Source: Opitutaceae bacterium
GTDB taxonomy: Bacteria; Verrucomicrobiota; Verrucomicrobiia; Opitutales; Opitutaceae
Length of the DNA: 64,000 bases
NCBI GenBank assembly: GCA_028284235.1
Contig: JANQSC010000013.1
Location: forward strand, 124,001 to 188,000
Direction of reading: 5' to 3'
Positions 28,305 to 33,283 of the stretch are shown piece by piece. The notes beneath the pieces were generated by a model. It saw only the letters and a list, made by a program, of their open reading frames with translations, was not told the DNA's origin and did not search any database. Each line of letters opens with the position of its first letter. Within the stretch, counting starts at the first letter, position 1. The position numbers were made by a program, and so were the translations under genes.

Positions 28305-29129
28305 CTAAAGATCGTCCGCGCTCGCGCCCCCGCGCCGAAGCTCCCTCAAGCTCAAGGCATTGTCCCGCTTGGCCAATCGGCGTCCCGTCTCGTCCCGCAC
28401 CAACGGGCAATGGAAAAACGCCGGCGGCTCCGCCCCGAGCGAGCGGTATATTAAAAGTTGCCGCGCCGTGGACAGGAGCAGATCCTCGCCGCGAACCACT
28501 TCGGTGATCCCCATCGCGATATCGTCAACCACCACCGCGAGCTCGTACGACGGAATCCCGTCCTTGCGCCAAATAACGAAATCCCCGAAGTCCTGGCCCG
28601 CGACAAACGCCTGCGGCCCCAGATTGCCATCCTCGAACGCGACTGTTTCTCCCGCCGGCACGCGCAAGCGCCAATTCACCTCGAAAACCGATTGCCCCGC
28701 TTCCAATAGATAGGGCCGATCCCGGCAGAATCCGGGATAAATCAATTCTCCACCCTCGTCATGCGGGGCCTGAGTCGCCTCTCGCAAATCTTTACGCGAG
28801 CATCGGCAGGGAAACGCCGTCCGCTGCAATCGGATACGCTCCAACGCGTCTTGATAGAGAGCCAGCCTCTCGCTTTGGCGATAAGGCCCGCAACTCCCTC
28901 CGATGTCCGGGCCCTCGTCCCAGTCCAGCCCCGCCCATTTCAGATCCTCCGCCAACGCGTCCTCGAATTCCGACTTGCAGCGGTCTCGATCCAGGTCTTC
29001 GACCCTCAATATCAACTCTCCCCCTTCGACTCGCGCCCGCTCTTGAGCCGTCAGGAAAGTCCTGGCGTGCCCTCGGTGCATGTAGCCCGTCGGCGTCGGA
29101 GCTATTCGTCCTCGGTATCCAGATTCCAT
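28305..29129 (-). CDS. gluQ: Glutamyl-Q tRNA(Asp) synthetase
   Basis: 274 residues, a class I catalytic core without the anticodon-binding domain of GluRS. The start GRIAPTPTGYMHRGHA carries the HIGH-like signature, and the KMSKS-equivalent is RLAKRDNA near residue 252. A zinc-binding group (CRCSRKDL...CRD) lies at about 106-137. It attaches glutamate to queuosine in tRNA-Asp. A single gene on the minus strand, divergent from the ABC exporter. Confidence 0.9.
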   Translation of the reverse strand: MESGYRGRIAPTPTGYMHRGHARTFLTAQERARVEGGELILRVEDLDRDRCKSEFEDALAEDLKWAGLDWDEGPDIGGSCGPYRQSERLALYQDALERIRLQRTAFPCRCSRKDLREATQAPHDEGGELIYPGFCRDRPYLLEAGQSVFEVNWRLRVPAGETVAFEDGNLGPQAFVAGQDFGDFVIWRKDGIPSYELAVVVDDIAMGITEVVRGEDLLLSTARQLLIYRSLGAEPPAFFHCPLVRDETGRRLAKRDNALSLRELRRGGASADDL

Positions 29130-29149: not shown

Positions 29150-29236
29150 CTTAATCCTAATCATACTCCTAATCATAATCACAATCATCTCCAGCTCCTT
29201 CTTAATTTGATTACGAGTAGGATTAGGATTAGGAGT
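29150..29236. repeat. AATCCTAATCAT-type inverted repeat region
   Basis: The left part (TTAATCCTAATCATACTCC and on) and the right part (ACGAGTAGGATTAGGATTAG, 29212-29231) are imperfect reverse complements built from the same GATTAGGA-type words as the tandem repeat at 21916-22039. It also lies between divergent genes (gluQ and the exporter). Confidence 0.65.
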
Positions 29237-29330
29237 ACGACCTGAAGATTTAGACTTGCGCCCACCCGAATGTTCGCGCTTAACTCCCTCCACACTACAA
29301 ACTCCACCCCGCCCGAACCGTATTGAACTT

Positions 29331-29399
29331 ATGAATCCCATGCCACGAGACATTTCAGAGAATGTATACAGCATCGGGCGCGTTTTTAGAGACACTTAA
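29331..29399 (+). CDS. Candidate 22-residue leader peptide of the ABC exporter
   Basis: ATG at 29331 (second in-frame ATG three codons on), TAA at 29397-29399. The peptide begins MNPMPRDISENVY. No clear Shine-Dalgarno is present. It ends 13 nt before the first of a series of mutually exclusive stem segments that lead to an intrinsic terminator, the layout used by leader-peptide attenuators. Small ORFs occur by chance, so this is a proposal. Confidence 0.4.
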   Translation: MNPMPRDISENVYSIGRVFRDT

Positions 29400-29411
29400 A
29401 CGCATATACAG

Positions 29412-29500
29412 AGCCCGAGCTTCCCAAAACGCAGCGGGCTAACGAATTTCCCTCCCATCCCTATATGGCCCGCTTTTTTTATAAAAGCGGGTCTTTTTTT
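29412..29500 (+). promoter_or_regulatory. Candidate transcription attenuator upstream of the ABC exporter
   Basis: Four segments are visible: 1 AGCCCG (29412-29417), 2 AGCGGGCTA (29433-29441), 3 GCCCGCTTTT (29468-29477), 4 AAAAGCGGG (29483-29491), followed by TC and seven T (29494-29500). Segment 1 pairs with the CGGGCT of segment 2 (6 bp). Segment 2 pairs with segment 3 and its flank (29466-29474; 9 bp including one G-T). Segment 3 pairs with segment 4 (9 bp), making the terminator. Pairs 1:2 and 2:3 exclude each other, as do 2:3 and 3:4. The pairings are seen in the sequence; regulation is inferred. Confidence 0.55.
29469..29500 (+). terminator. Intrinsic terminator in the exporter leader
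   Basis: CCCGCTTTT/AAAAGCGGG, 5-nt loop, then a seven-T run. It lies 64 bp upstream of the first exporter start codon and points towards it, so it would stop transcription before the genes. There is no upstream plus-strand gene other than the short leader ORF that it could serve. Confidence 0.8.
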
Positions 29501-29563
29501 GGCCCACAACCAAATTCAAACCAACAAACTACAGAACAGTCACACGACACTGCCTTCGGGAGA

Positions 29564-31405
29564 ATGACTTCATCAAACTCCGAATCTTCACCTCCACAGC
29601 CCAAGTCCGCATTCCGTCAAATCAGCGCTCTCATCGCCCGACATCGATGGAAATACGGGATCGCCACCGCCTGCTTGTTCCTCGCGACCGCGTTCGAGTT
29701 TTTCGTGCCATTGATCGGCAGCGCGACCATCGACCACGTGTTGGATACTCAAGACGGCCAATCCAATCCATTGCTCGACCGGGTCATTCGCTTGCTCGGC
29801 GGCCCCGATCGAGTCGAATCGGCATTGTGGATACCCGCGGTTGCAATGCTCCTCTTTTCCCTGGCGGGAGGTATTTTCAACTACGTCCAAAAACGATTCG
29901 CCGCTCAAGCCTCTGACGGTATCTGCAAGCGACTCAAAGACGAGCTCTACGACCACATCCAACAGCTTCCCAACAAGTACCTGGACCAGTCCCAGACGGG
30001 CGACCTTTTGCAGCGCTGCACCTCCGACATCGAGACAATGCGGCTCTTCCTCGCGTCGCACGTGGTCGAAATTGGCCGATCCTTCATATTGATCGCCACC
30101 GTCGTCCCCGTCATGCTCGCATTGAACGCGAAACTCACAATCGTATCTACGTTTCTGATACCACTCATTATTCTGTACGGCTATTTCTACTTCAAGCGCG
30201 TAAAGGCCATTTTCAAGGAGGTCGACGAATCCGAGGGTAAATTAACTGCCGTCGTGCAGGAGAACATCACCGGAATTCGAGTGGTGCGGGCCTTTGGCCG
30301 CCACGACCACGAGATCCGGCGATTCGCCCAGCCCAATCGAGAATTCCGCGAAAAACGCATCCAACTGACGCGCCACATGGCTAATTTCTGGGCGCCTTCC
30401 GACATGCTCAACCTCGTCCAGATCGGACTCGCTCTCGTCGTCGGCTCCTACATGGCAATCAACGGACAGACCACCATCGGCACGCTCTTCGGTTTCCTCG
30501 CTCTGCTCAACATCGTACTCTGGCCTGTTCGAATGATCGGCCGTATCCTTACCGACCTCGGCAAGACCATCGTCGCCATCAATCGCATCAACGAAATCTT
30601 CACCCAGCCCGTCGAGACACGCAACGACCAAGTCGCCCTTCGCCCCGATCACCCAGTCGCCGGCCATATCGAATTCCAAAATGTCTCCTTCAGCCATTCC
30701 GAAGACCGTCCGACCGTCCAGGATATCACCTGCGTCGTCGAGCCCGGACAAACCTTGGCTATCCTCGGCTCGTCTGGAGCAGGGAAGACGACGCTCATGA
30801 ATCTTCTCCTCCGCTTCTACGACTGCGACAGCGGCACCCTGTCCATCGACGGAATGGACTTGAAGCAACTCGACCGCAGCTACCTGCGCGACCAGTTCGG
30901 GGTCGTCCTGCAAGAGCCCTTCCTCTACTCGCGCACGATCGAGGAGAACATTCGCTTCGGGTCGACCCAAGCCCAGTCACGCGCGGTCGAACAAGCCGCC
31001 CGGGCCGCGTGTATCCACGAAACCATTCAAAATTTCAACGACGGATACAAAACCGAAATCGGCGAACGGGGCATCACCCTGTCTGGAGGACAGCGCCAGC
31101 GCGTCGCCATCGCCCGAGCCATCCTGCGCGATCCTCCTATCCTGCTGCTCGACGACGCCCTCAGCGCCGTCGACAACGAAACGGAAAAAGCCATCATCGA
31201 AGCGCTCGACCGGCGCCGCGGAAAGAGCACGACCATCGTAATCGCCCACCGTCTCTCCACCCTCGCCCACGCCGACAAAGTAATCGTCATGGAAAAAGGA
31301 CGTATCATTCAAACGGGCACGCACGAGACGCTCACTCAAGAAGAAGGGCTCTACCAGCGCCTTTGGAATATACAAACCGAACTCCAGTCCAAACTCACTG
31401 CCTAA
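29564..31405 (+). CDS. ABC exporter half-transporter, degenerate-site subunit (BmrC/LmrC-like)
   Basis: 613 residues from the ATG at 29564, preceded by GGGAG; the open frame from 29465 runs through the terminator and is not used. The six-helix transmembrane domain is at about 25-325 and the ATPase domain at about 365-600. Walker A is GSSGAGKTT, the signature is canonical (LSGGQRQRVA), and Walker B is ILLLDDALSAVD, with Asp where the catalytic Glu is expected. The H-loop is VIAHRLSTLAHAD. This Asp is characteristic of the degenerate half of heterodimeric multidrug or lipid exporters. The partner follows 30 bp downstream. Confidence 0.88.
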   Translation: MTSSNSESSPPQPKSAFRQISALIARHRWKYGIATACLFLATAFEFFVPLIGSATIDHVLDTQDGQSNPLLDRVIRLLGGPDRVESALWIPAVAMLLFSLAGGIFNYVQKRFAAQASDGICKRLKDELYDHIQQLPNKYLDQSQTGDLLQRCTSDIETMRLFLASHVVEIGRSFILIATVVPVMLALNAKLTIVSTFLIPLIILYGYFYFKRVKAIFKEVDESEGKLTAVVQENITGIRVVRAFGRHDHEIRRFAQPNREFREKRIQLTRHMANFWAPSDMLNLVQIGLALVVGSYMAINGQTTIGTLFGFLALLNIVLWPVRMIGRILTDLGKTIVAINRINEIFTQPVETRNDQVALRPDHPVAGHIEFQNVSFSHSEDRPTVQDITCVVEPGQTLAILGSSGAGKTTLMNLLLRFYDCDSGTLSIDGMDLKQLDRSYLRDQFGVVLQEPFLYSRTIEENIRFGSTQAQSRAVEQAARAACIHETIQNFNDGYKTEIGERGITLSGGQRQRVAIARAILRDPPILLLDDALSAVDNETEKAIIEALDRRRGKSTTIVIAHRLSTLAHADKVIVMEKGRIIQTGTHETLTQEEGLYQRLWNIQTELQSKLTA

Positions 31406-31435: not shown

Positions 31436-33283
31436 ATGAACGCGCCGCTCGAAGAAGACGAAATTCAAAACAATATAAATGTCGATCTCTGGAAACGAAT
31501 CTTCCAATTCGCCTTGGCGCACAAACGCCTGCTCATTCCACTCACCGCCTCGGCGATCGCCCTCAGCGTCATCGAGTCGCTGCTGCCCATCGCCACCAAG
31601 TTCGCCGTCGAGGTAATCGAGTTCGGCAAGCCGGTCGAAGCGCTGTGGTTTCCCGCCGCGTTCTATTTCGGCTTGTCCCTGGCGTTGTCGATTCTCGTCT
31701 ACGTGTTCATCCGCTGCGCCGGATCGATCTCCCACCACATCAGTCACGACATCAAGCGCGACTGCTTCAAGCGCTTGCAAGAACTCGAATTCGCATTCTA
31801 CGACTCCCAGCCAACCGGTTCGCTGATCTCCCGCCTGACCGCGGACTGCGACCGGCTCTCCAACATCCTCGCCTGGGGGTTTCTCGATCTCGTTTGGGGC
31901 ATCTTCTTCGTCATCGCCATGGCCATCACCATGTTGATTCTGAACGTTGAACTCGCTCTGCTCGTGCTCACCACAATCGTGCCGCTCGTGTTCTTGAGCA
32001 GCTTTTTCCGCAAGCGCATGCTCATAGCCTCCCGGCAAATCCGAAAGCACAACGCCCGCATCACCGCGTCCTACAACGAGGGGATACACGGCGTGAAAAC
32101 GACCAAAACGCTGGGGCGCGAGAGGGAGAACTTGAGCGAGTTCGAATCCATGTCCAGCGACATGTTCAACGCGTCGGTACGGCGCGCCATACTGGGGGCC
32201 ATCTACCTTCCGCTGGTCGTAGCCATTGGCAGCGTCGGTTCCGGGCTCGCCCTCTGGTATGGCGGAGCGAACGCGCTCTCCGGGGACCTCTCGCTCGGCA
32301 CGATGATCGCGTTCATGAGCTTCGCGGGACAGTTTTTCTTCCCCATCAATCAAATCGCCATGGTTCTGGCCGAACTGCAAGGCGCTCAAGCTGCGGGGGA
32401 ACGCGTGATGGGTTTGCTCGCCACGTATCCGAAAATCAAGGACTCGGAATCCGTCATCGCACGTATTGAACAGCACAAATCCAGTGTGGATTCTACACAC
32501 GCCCTCGACGGTTACGCGAACCGAATCGAGAGGATCGAGTTCCGAAACGTCGGATTCACTTACAACGAGAAAGAAATCGTCCTCGACGACTTCAATCTCT
32601 CCGTCAAGCGCGGCCAGACCATCGCCCTCGTCGGACCGAGCGGAGGCGGCAAGAGCACCATCGTCAGCGTTCTCTCGCGATTCTACGAGCCCACTAGCGG
32701 CGCCTTGGAATTCAACGGGGTCGACTACCGTCAACGCAGCCTCGACTGGCTGCAAAGCCAGCTCGGGATCGTGTTGCAAACGCCCCACCTCTTCAACGGC
32801 ACTATTAGCGAGAATATCCGCTACGGACGACTCGATGCGACCGATGAAGAGATCGAATCCGTCGCCCGAATCGTCAACGCCCACGAATTCATATCGAATC
32901 TGGAAAACGGATACGAAACCGTGATCGGTGAAGGCGGCGCCCGGCTTTCCACCGGCGAGCGCCAGCTGATCTCGTTCGCCCGAGCCCTCGTCGCCGACCC
33001 GCAGATCTTCATCATGGACGAAGCGACCTCCTCCATCGACACGGAGACGGAGGCGCTCATTCAAGAAGGTATGCAGCGAATCTTCCAAGGCCGCATCAGC
33101 TTCGTCATCGCCCACCGTCTATCGACCATTCGCTCCGCAGACCAGATACTCTTCATCCGCGAAGGCAAAATCGCGGAGCAAGGGACGCACACGGAGCTGA
33201 TGGACTTGAAAGGAAGCTACTTCGACTTGTATTTGAAGCAGTTCCGCCGAGAACGTGTCAGCGACGAACTCGAAGCAAGCTAG
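31436..33283 (+). CDS. ABC exporter half-transporter, catalytic-site subunit (BmrD/LmrD-like)
   Basis: 615 residues: six-helix membrane domain (about 20-330) and ATPase (about 360-600). Walker A GPSGGGKST and Walker B IFIMDEATSSID have the catalytic Glu, but the signature is LSTGERQL instead of LSGGQ. Combined with the upstream subunit, this gives one consensus ATP site (this Walker B plus the partner's LSGGQ) and one degenerate site (partner's Asp plus this LSTGE). That complementarity indicates an obligate heterodimer. The substrate is unknown; drugs or lipids are usual. Confidence 0.88.
   Translation: MNAPLEEDEIQNNINVDLWKRIFQFALAHKRLLIPLTASAIALSVIESLLPIATKFAVEVIEFGKPVEALWFPAAFYFGLSLALSILVYVFIRCAGSISHHISHDIKRDCFKRLQELEFAFYDSQPTGSLISRLTADCDRLSNILAWGFLDLVWGIFFVIAMAITMLILNVELALLVLTTIVPLVFLSSFFRKRMLIASRQIRKHNARITASYNEGIHGVKTTKTLGRERENLSEFESMSSDMFNASVRRAILGAIYLPLVVAIGSVGSGLALWYGGANALSGDLSLGTMIAFMSFAGQFFFPINQIAMVLAELQGAQAAGERVMGLLATYPKIKDSESVIARIEQHKSSVDSTHALDGYANRIERIEFRNVGFTYNEKEIVLDDFNLSVKRGQTIALVGPSGGGKSTIVSVLSRFYEPTSGALEFNGVDYRQRSLDWLQSQLGIVLQTPHLFNGTISENIRYGRLDATDEEIESVARIVNAHEFISNLENGYETVIGEGGARLSTGERQLISFARALVADPQIFIMDEATSSIDTETEALIQEGMQRIFQGRISFVIAHRLSTIRSADQILFIREGKIAEQGTHTELMDLKGSYFDLYLKQFRRERVSDELEAS

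Follow-up and report, generated by a model that had tools for sequence, protein, structure and literature searches.

Putative ribosome-mediated transcription attenuator in a conserved leader upstream of a heterodimeric ABC exporter operon in Opitutaceae

Introduction

A stretch of 64,000 nucleotides from an Opitutaceae bacterium (GenBank assembly GCA_028284235.1, contig JANQSC010000013.1, positions 124,001–188,000 of the forward strand; hereafter the window) carries two genes for an ATP-binding cassette (ABC) exporter, preceded by a short open reading frame (ORF) and an intrinsic terminator, and raises the question of how transcription into the exporter genes is controlled. A sequence-only reading of this locus had proposed a leader peptide and a four-segment attenuator resembling bmrB-bmrCD of Bacillus subtilis. 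The comparative analysis described here shows that the arrangement is real and conserved. The exporter operon is probably controlled by a ribosome-mediated transcription attenuator that senses general translation stress, as argued below.

Overall structure of the leader

The leader comprises a 22-codon ORF and a series of complementary segments (Table 1), four of which had been delineated before, in the order AGCCCG, AGCGGGCTA, GCCCGCTTTT, and AAAAGCGGG followed by T7. Both the ORF, which is read in the sequence and recurs in relatives, and the four segments with their mutually exclusive hairpins and terminator, which recur before orthologous exporters, were borne out; AGCCCG follows the leader stop codon at a distance of 12 nucleotides (nt), compared with the 13 nt given by the sequence-only reading. 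The second segment, AGCGGGCTA, can form 9 base pairs, including one G–U pair, with TGGCCCGCT, and the terminator has the longest stem among 10 terminator-like sites in 6 kb (6.3 sites expected in shuffles). The predicted folding energy of the 170-nt leader is −45.8 kcal/mol versus −33.9 ± 3.8 kcal/mol for shuffled sequences (z, −3.2), beating 199 of 200 shuffles. The four-segment anatomy had missed a further segment within the leader ORF, S0 (UCGGGC), with the potential to form a helix with S1 (GCCCGA). When the full leader of the window is folded to minimum energy, S0 is paired with a still earlier segment, S-1, and S1:S2 and S3:S4 form as well. Two features of ribosome-mediated transcription attenuators are found in the window: a short ORF upstream of an intrinsic terminator, and mutually exclusive terminator and anti-terminator structures, conserved in relatives as judged by sequence and predicted pairing. 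No Rfam family matched the leader at its gathering score, a tRNA being the sole match in the window, and the best sub-threshold match was suhB/mmgR (25.9 bits versus a cut-off of 41).

Table 1. Positions in the window of the leader elements, the predicted promoter, and the exporter genes
Feature	Coordinates	Strand	Basis
Predicted promoter: CTTGCG (29255–29260), 18 nt, CTTAAC (29279–29284)	29255–29284	+	Conserved element; −10 element and start inferred
Leader ORF, 22 codons and stop (MNPMPRDISENVYSIGRVFRDT*)	29331–29399	+	ORF reading of sequence; ORF in relatives
S-1 (CCCAUGC), near ORF start; partner 29371–29378 (GCAU-C-GGG)	29337–29343	+	Minimum-energy fold; co-variation
S0 (UCGGGC), within leader ORF; partner S1	29374–29379	+	Co-variation across loci
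S1 (AGCCCGA; AGCCCG, 29412–29417); partner S0 or S2	29412–29418	+	Predicted pairing; relatives
S2 (AGCGGGCUA); partner S1 or S3	29433–29441	+	Predicted pairing; relatives
Linker UUUCCCUCCCAUCCC, between S2 and S3, near-invariant	29447–29461	+	Exact 15-mer search
S3, 5' arm of terminator	29467–29477	+	Terminator scan; relatives
S4, 3' arm of terminator (29483–29493), and T7	29483–29500	+	Terminator scan; relatives
ABC exporter subunit 1, 613 amino acids, degenerate catalytic site (D531), canonical LSGGQ	29564–31405	+	Sequence; orthologs
ABC exporter subunit 2, 615 amino acids, catalytic E529, non-canonical LSTGE	31436–33283	+	Sequence; orthologs

Occurrence in related genomes

Among the 252 genomes of the family set, in which the window genome is denoted G000, 57 contained a match to exporter subunit 1 at E ≤ 1e-130, and 56 of these loci were examined (G121, with a match starting at base 9 of its contig, was left out). 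In the comparison with relatives proposed by the sequence-only reading, the leader ORF and the segments proved conserved, an automatic scan finding the ORF and S0, S1, S2, S3, and S4 all together in 44 of the 56 loci. A second automatic scan called a terminator in 47 of 54 loci, from which G015, G017, and G206 were dropped before the 44-locus set. An ORF of 17–27 codons with its stop codon between S0 and S1 was present in 44/44 loci tested, where shuffling predicts 1.8. By eye, the leader and terminator were also recognized in G206, G195, G194, and G015, a leader without a clear T-run in G023, and a leader with a weak terminator in G209, so that at least part of the element occurs in 50 of the 56 loci. 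In G195 (L137) and G194 (L241), the leader and terminator lie ~200–280 nt before the start of the matched gene and are followed by an apparent, partly duplicated exporter gene start.

A covariance model built from 26 sequences of one clade was searched in the 252 genomes. All 35 matches at E ≤ 5.6e-7, including the 26 training sequences, precede the exporter pair, and subunit 2 was confirmed downstream of model matches in G265, G107, and G026 (outside the 57) and in G135 (E, 7.3e-6). Five further weaker matches that were inspected (G060:C280 with E of 2.1e-6, G059, G121:C165, G247, and G062) appeared by eye to be gene-end terminators, and a match to subunit 2 was absent at these five sites; model matches at E ≤ 0.1 extend to 124 of the 252 genomes. 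Because the model misses the window's own copy, it cannot decide on further divergent copies in the window genome, in which a DNA search gave one strong copy and five other own matches with E ≥ 3. A scan of named relatives covered 26 loci with a best identity of 40%, none of which was used.

The outside-family sets consisted of 384 genomes of the class and 260 genomes of the family f24. In 10 of 16 f24 genomes, 20-codon ORFs are located before the orthologs, as they are in G335 and G412, which belong to two other families. A terminator was called in 9 of 12 outside-family loci scanned, two of the calls (G495 and G405) being judged spurious. The distribution of the leader is thus wider than the window's family, with the S0 layer seen there in few loci.

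In five members of the window's genus (G003, G001, G009, G010, and G008; loci L033, L034, L036, L037, and L110, respectively), the exporter is disrupted or for the most part deleted, and a leader of 22–24 codons persists with its terminator; the start codon of the G010 leader is GTG or else an inner ATG, and the G003 contig ends within the exporter remnant. Only G000 and G005 of the 11 genus members have a full-length exporter match.

Co-variation of the pairing segments

Over the 44 loci, S0 and S1 occur in 27 different combinations, such as GGACGAGCC/GGCUCGUCU, GCGGACCG/CGGUCCGC, GCGGGCUC/GAGCCCGC, and UCGGGC/GCCCGA. The matched S0–S1 duplexes have an energy of −13.8, compared with −11.2 for re-dealt partners (z, −8.6; 0 of 20,000 permutations). 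S-1, within codons 2–9, likewise tracks S0 (z, −4.9; 0 of 20,000), and the corresponding values for S1 and S2 are −2.8 and 73 of 20,000; in all these permutations, the loci share segments by kinship and do not represent independent events. When each locus was compared with the mean obtained after dinucleotide shuffling of its partner region, S0:S1 was better in 42 of 44 loci (19 at p ≤ 0.05; window alone, p 0.10), S1:S2 in 43 (20 at p ≤ 0.05; window alone, p 0.04), and S-1:S0 in 33 (11 at p ≤ 0.05; window, p 0.28), the S-1:S0 helix being weaker than the other helices.

Alignment of all clades by MAFFT (36 of the 44 leaders) misaligned S0 and S1, and co-variation was therefore counted on the 26-sequence clade, or otherwise on per-locus segments. 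This clade has an extra hairpin within S0:S1 whose loop contains or adjoins the leader stop codon; this stop-codon hairpin co-varies, both sides having changed in 5 of 6 pairs. For the ON structure as a whole, the covariation score was reached by none of 500 shuffles, and the count of pairs changed on both sides by 19 of 500. The S2 core, GCGGG, is invariant in 36 aligned loci.

Predicted effect of the ribosome position

In the folding model, the RNA from the leading edge of the ribosome (P-site +14) to the start of S3 was folded, with pairs across the ribosome forbidden. Averaged over the 44 loci, the predicted probabilities of S0:S1 and S1:S2 were 0.65 and 0.26 with the ribosome at codon 4, 0 and 0.84 with the ribosome at the stop codon, and 0.27 and 0.59 with no ribosome, most of the change falling between 5 and 4 codons upstream of S0. 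The switch exceeded 0.2 in 35 of the 44 loci; 40 control sets with a shuffled leader sequence from the codon-4 footprint to S1 gave a mean of 10.2 such loci and at most 16. For the window, the respective probabilities were 0.64 and 0.30 at codon 4, 0 and 0.84 at the stop codon, and 0.88 and 0.08 without a ribosome.

S1 starts 7–21 nt past the leader stop codon (more than 8 nt in 40 of 44 loci), and S0 starts at codon 13–20 (codon 13–17 in 39 of 44). Since S1 in those 40 loci lies beyond the assumed ribosome footprint and S0 competes for S1, a ribosome at the stop codon should favour termination. The model thus predicts that a ribosome held early, in the first ~10 codons, opens the gene and that a ribosome reaching the stop codon closes it; the logic of the sequence-only reading, by which a ribosome paused near the stop would cover the first segment and open the gene, is probably inverted at the stop codon.

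The proposed mechanism can be outlined as follows. Transcription would start ~40 nt 5' of the short ORF and produce six segments, each pairing only with its neighbours (S-1:S0, S0:S1, S1:S2, S2:S3, and S3:S4, the last being the terminator). During normal translation, S0 would be masked while S1 and S2 emerge; S1 would then capture S2, leaving S3 available for the S3:S4 terminator, which would end transcription. A ribosome detained early in the ORF, within ~10 codons of its start, would cover S-1, allowing S0:S1 and then S2:S3 to form, and transcription would proceed into the exporter genes. With no ribosome, S-1:S0 would form, and termination is expected in most loci.

A number of results weigh against this mechanism. 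The ban on pairs across the ribosome is an assumption, and an earlier mask that allowed such pairs gave 0.97 for S0:S1 in the window with the ribosome at the stop codon. S1:S2 equalled or exceeded S0:S1 at codon 4 in 11 of the 44 loci; the model showed no switch for G005, the nearest intact relative; and without a ribosome the window itself, unlike most relatives, favours S0:S1, that is, read-through. When S3 was included in equilibrium folding, S2:S3 was on average stronger than S1:S2 at every ribosome position with at least five loci, and the switch therefore depends on S1:S2 forming first. As for co-variation, further pair types in the ON structure numbered 12 compared with 13.2 in shuffles, 475 of 500 of which reached that count. 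S1:S2 and S3:S4 had no double change in the 26-sequence clade; their cores are invariant, so that co-variation cannot test these helices, and double changes would be expected to be missing if every arm alternates between two partners. In addition, the segment finder was fitted to the loci one by one. No leader was seen in the ~400–500 nt upstream of the exporter in 6 of the 56 loci (G268, G017, G271, G060, G063, and G166), in the first three of which another gene ends directly before the exporter, and among outside-family loci with a plausible leader, S0 lies inside the ORF only in G606 and G412. The promoter, the translation of the ORF, the termination event, and the direction of the response also enter the mechanism as predicted steps.

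Leader peptide and alternative explanations

The ratio of nonsynonymous to synonymous changes (pN/pS) for the ten codons before S0 was 0.88 over 52 closer pairs among 23 main-clade leaders. For the 13 codons before S0, it was 1.10 over all 253 main-clade pairs and 0.80 over 28 pairs of the genus g20, and the shifted frames of the main clade gave 0.85 and 0.80. The leader peptide in the window's family hence showed no sign of purifying selection (pN/pS, 0.80–1.10), with saturation as a caveat. What is retained is the ORF length (18–26 codons), the position of S0, the distance of S1 after the stop codon, and, at the nucleotide level, the S0 codons. In the absence of a sign of peptide selection, the sensor most likely reads the position of the ribosome, and the presumed inducing signal would be general translation stress, not a particular drug or amino acid. 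In f24 (L151, L157, L205–L207, L209, and L214–L217), codon 10 encodes Arg in 8 and codon 13 encodes Trp in 6 of the ten 20-codon leaders, and the Trp codon overlaps a CCUGG..CAGG hairpin by eye; a constraint on the peptide is possible in this family.

These features bear on the alternatives that assign the response to the peptide or to another ribosome position. The four-segment model, in which a drug-stalled ribosome near the leader stop covers S1 and S2 pairs with S3 to open the gene as in bmrB, is correct in that all four segments exist and S2:S3 is strong. We nevertheless consider it unlikely, because S1 is located too far past the stop codon in most loci, placing the ribosome at the stop gives S1:S2 a predicted probability of more than 0.5 in 43 of 44 loci, and the model does not need S0, yet S0 tracks S1. 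A drug-dependent arrest peptide, stalling with one antibiotic class as in the erm, hflXr, and msrD leaders, is doubtful but deserves more weight: the folding model predicts that stalling within the first ~10 codons opens the gene, and the recurrent Arg of the f24 leaders would suit it. Against it, the main-clade pN/pS is no lower than that of the shifted frames, the arrest motif RLR occurs in only 1 of 44 leaders ([RK]x[RK] in 3), and the conserved A–G codons as well as the f24 Trp codon sit within RNA helices.

In trp-type attenuators, an early stall opens the gene, and a ribosome at the stop codon or no ribosome closes it. Amino-acid attenuation of this kind would follow the same logic at the present leader; it is highly improbable in view of the exporter as the target and the composition of the 44 leaders, in which codons 2–13 contain no run of three identical residues and no residue exceeds 4 occurrences, a number reached in 2 leaders. 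The remaining alternative is a plain terminator or constitutive small RNA (sRNA) with no regulatory read-through, the exporter being transcribed from a promoter downstream. The persistence of the leader and terminator in genus members with a broken exporter and the near-invariance of the linker would agree with it. The consensus promoter scan gave none in the interval 29500–29564, although it also missed the predicted leader promoter (29255–29284), and the co-variation of S0:S1 and of the stop-codon hairpin speaks against a plain terminator; we regard this explanation as quite improbable. Ribosome-mediated attenuation with an early opening position is consequently preferred.

Linker and upstream region

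The linker is C-rich and has the look of an anti-Shine-Dalgarno sequence. Its exact 15-mer was found in 17 of the 252 family genomes, once in each, of which 15 in three genera are at the leader and two are elsewhere. Between G000 and G005, the linker with S3 is identical at 34 of 36 positions, and the leader ORF with S1 at 47 of 86. Of the two pairs with broken exporters, G001/G009 shows a constraint on the leader (33 of 36 for the linker with S3 versus 425 of 570 on the gluQ side), and G003/G010 shows no extra constraint (31 of 36 and 534 of 570). An anti-Shine-Dalgarno motif, CCUCCUCCC, is described in alphaproteobacterial sRNAs (PMC10746234), and rnTrpL is described as a terminated attenuator RNA able to act in trans (PMC7298713). 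There is a small chance that the terminated leader is also a trans-acting sRNA, the linker serving as a seed to repress other mRNAs when translation is healthy; if so, one translation-stress switch would open the exporter and withdraw the sRNA simultaneously.

CTTG[C/T] is present in the 85 nt preceding the leader ATG in 43/43 loci (12.8 expected in shuffles), at positions −28 to −79 relative to the ATG; G005, with too short an upstream sequence, was left out of the count. This promoter-like element supports the attenuator layout of the sequence-only reading. In L118 (G258) and L121 (G261), a perfect GGGCGGAGC/GCTCCGCCC hairpin separates the CTTGCC element from the leader ATG. Further upstream in the window, a divergent gene (28305–29129, minus strand) presumably resembles that for glutamyl-Q tRNA(Asp) synthetase. 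The region between this gene and the promoter (29150–29240) contains a dispersed, partly palindromic TAATC-type repeat with 69 BLAST matches in its own genome at E ≤ 0.001, many of which are both strands of one place.

Exporter genes

Both exporter subunits are ABCB-like by sequence, with eukaryotic P-glycoproteins as the best matches among solved structures; the bacterial chains among the solved matches listed are TM_0288, the pair of 5mkk/6raf, and YheH of Bacillus, which we take to be TM287/288, TmrAB, and BmrD, respectively. None of the 25 NCBIfam families shown for each exporter protein reached its cut-off. An alternative, longer ORF for subunit 1 would start from 29465, just 5' of the terminator hairpin. 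Over 66 loci, including the broken gene of G008, subunit 1 has the catalytic-site Asp and LSGGQ in every case (66/66 each). Subunit 2 was readable in 51 of the 66 loci (15 not read), with Glu in 48 and Asp in 3 (G008, G263, and G063), the three Asp cases being judged best matches to subunit 1 instead. Its signature is LSTGQ in 33, LSTGE in 12, LSGGQ in 3, LSSGQ in 2, and LSAGQ in 1, the three LSGGQ being taken as the same mis-hits to subunit 1. Asp in subunit 1 and Glu in subunit 2 are as expected for a heterodimer in which one site is degenerate, in agreement with the heterodimeric exporter named by the sequence-only reading. A drug link is plausible, drugs being candidate inducers for the leader and candidate substrates for the exporter.

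Comparison with known systems

Ribosomes on upstream ORFs (uORFs) are described to sense translation inhibitors in bmrB (PMC4191407), vmlR (PMC9226507), hflXr (PMC6310831), and topAI/toiL (PMC12121999). In bmrB-bmrCD of B. subtilis, a leader ORF likewise precedes a heterodimeric multidrug ABC exporter, and leader translation acts as the sensor (PMC4191407). The parallel drawn by the sequence-only reading holds for this functional likeness and the type of exporter; it fails for the terminator, which in bmrB is inside the coding region of 53 codons (PMC4191407), whereas the present ORF has 22 codons (18–26 in relatives), ends before S1 at 29399, and is separated from the terminator starting at 29467. 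Relative to bmrB-bmrCD, the present leader also has extra layers, S0:S1 and probably S-1:S0.

The vmlR leader of B. subtilis shares a cascade of anti-antiterminator, antiterminator, and terminator with a ribosome on a short uORF, and its uORF variants of other sequence still function (PMC9226507), similar to the variable peptide here. It differs in having a three-codon uORF, an ABC-F target, and NusG-dependent pausing, and its description, as far as available, has no layer like S0 or S-1 (PMC9226507). In hflXr (rli80) of Listeria, a uORF and alternative terminator and anti-terminator structures are also found before a gene for resistance to translation inhibitors (PMC6310831); its uORF encodes 14 amino acids with the RLR arrest motif (PMC6310831), in contrast to its rarity in the present leaders. 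The early-stall step is described for trp-type attenuators (PMC4191407), from which the present leader differs by its lack of regulatory codon runs and by two more segments, and the trp leader RNA rnTrpL of Sinorhizobium, acting in trans (PMC7298713), is by analogy the model for an sRNA function. In open-access literature searches on this bacterial group, no listed paper dealt with such a system, and the main text of a uORF-motif survey of 26 genomes contains neither "Verrucomicrob-" nor "Opitutaceae" (PMC8632094).

Altogether, the element is predicted to work like attenuation of the bmrB/vmlR type, with extra pairing layers that make the cascade deeper than the textbook four segments. In the sources available, ribosome-read attenuators of resistance-type genes are described mostly from Firmicutes, with single cases elsewhere; the present element precedes one exporter in numerous genera of another class and combines a variable peptide with constrained RNA pairing. 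It provides a natural comparative set of what a uORF sensor keeps (position, frame, and stop codon) and what it may lose (the peptide). Should induction be confirmed, translation-stress control of the exporter would date far back in these bacteria.

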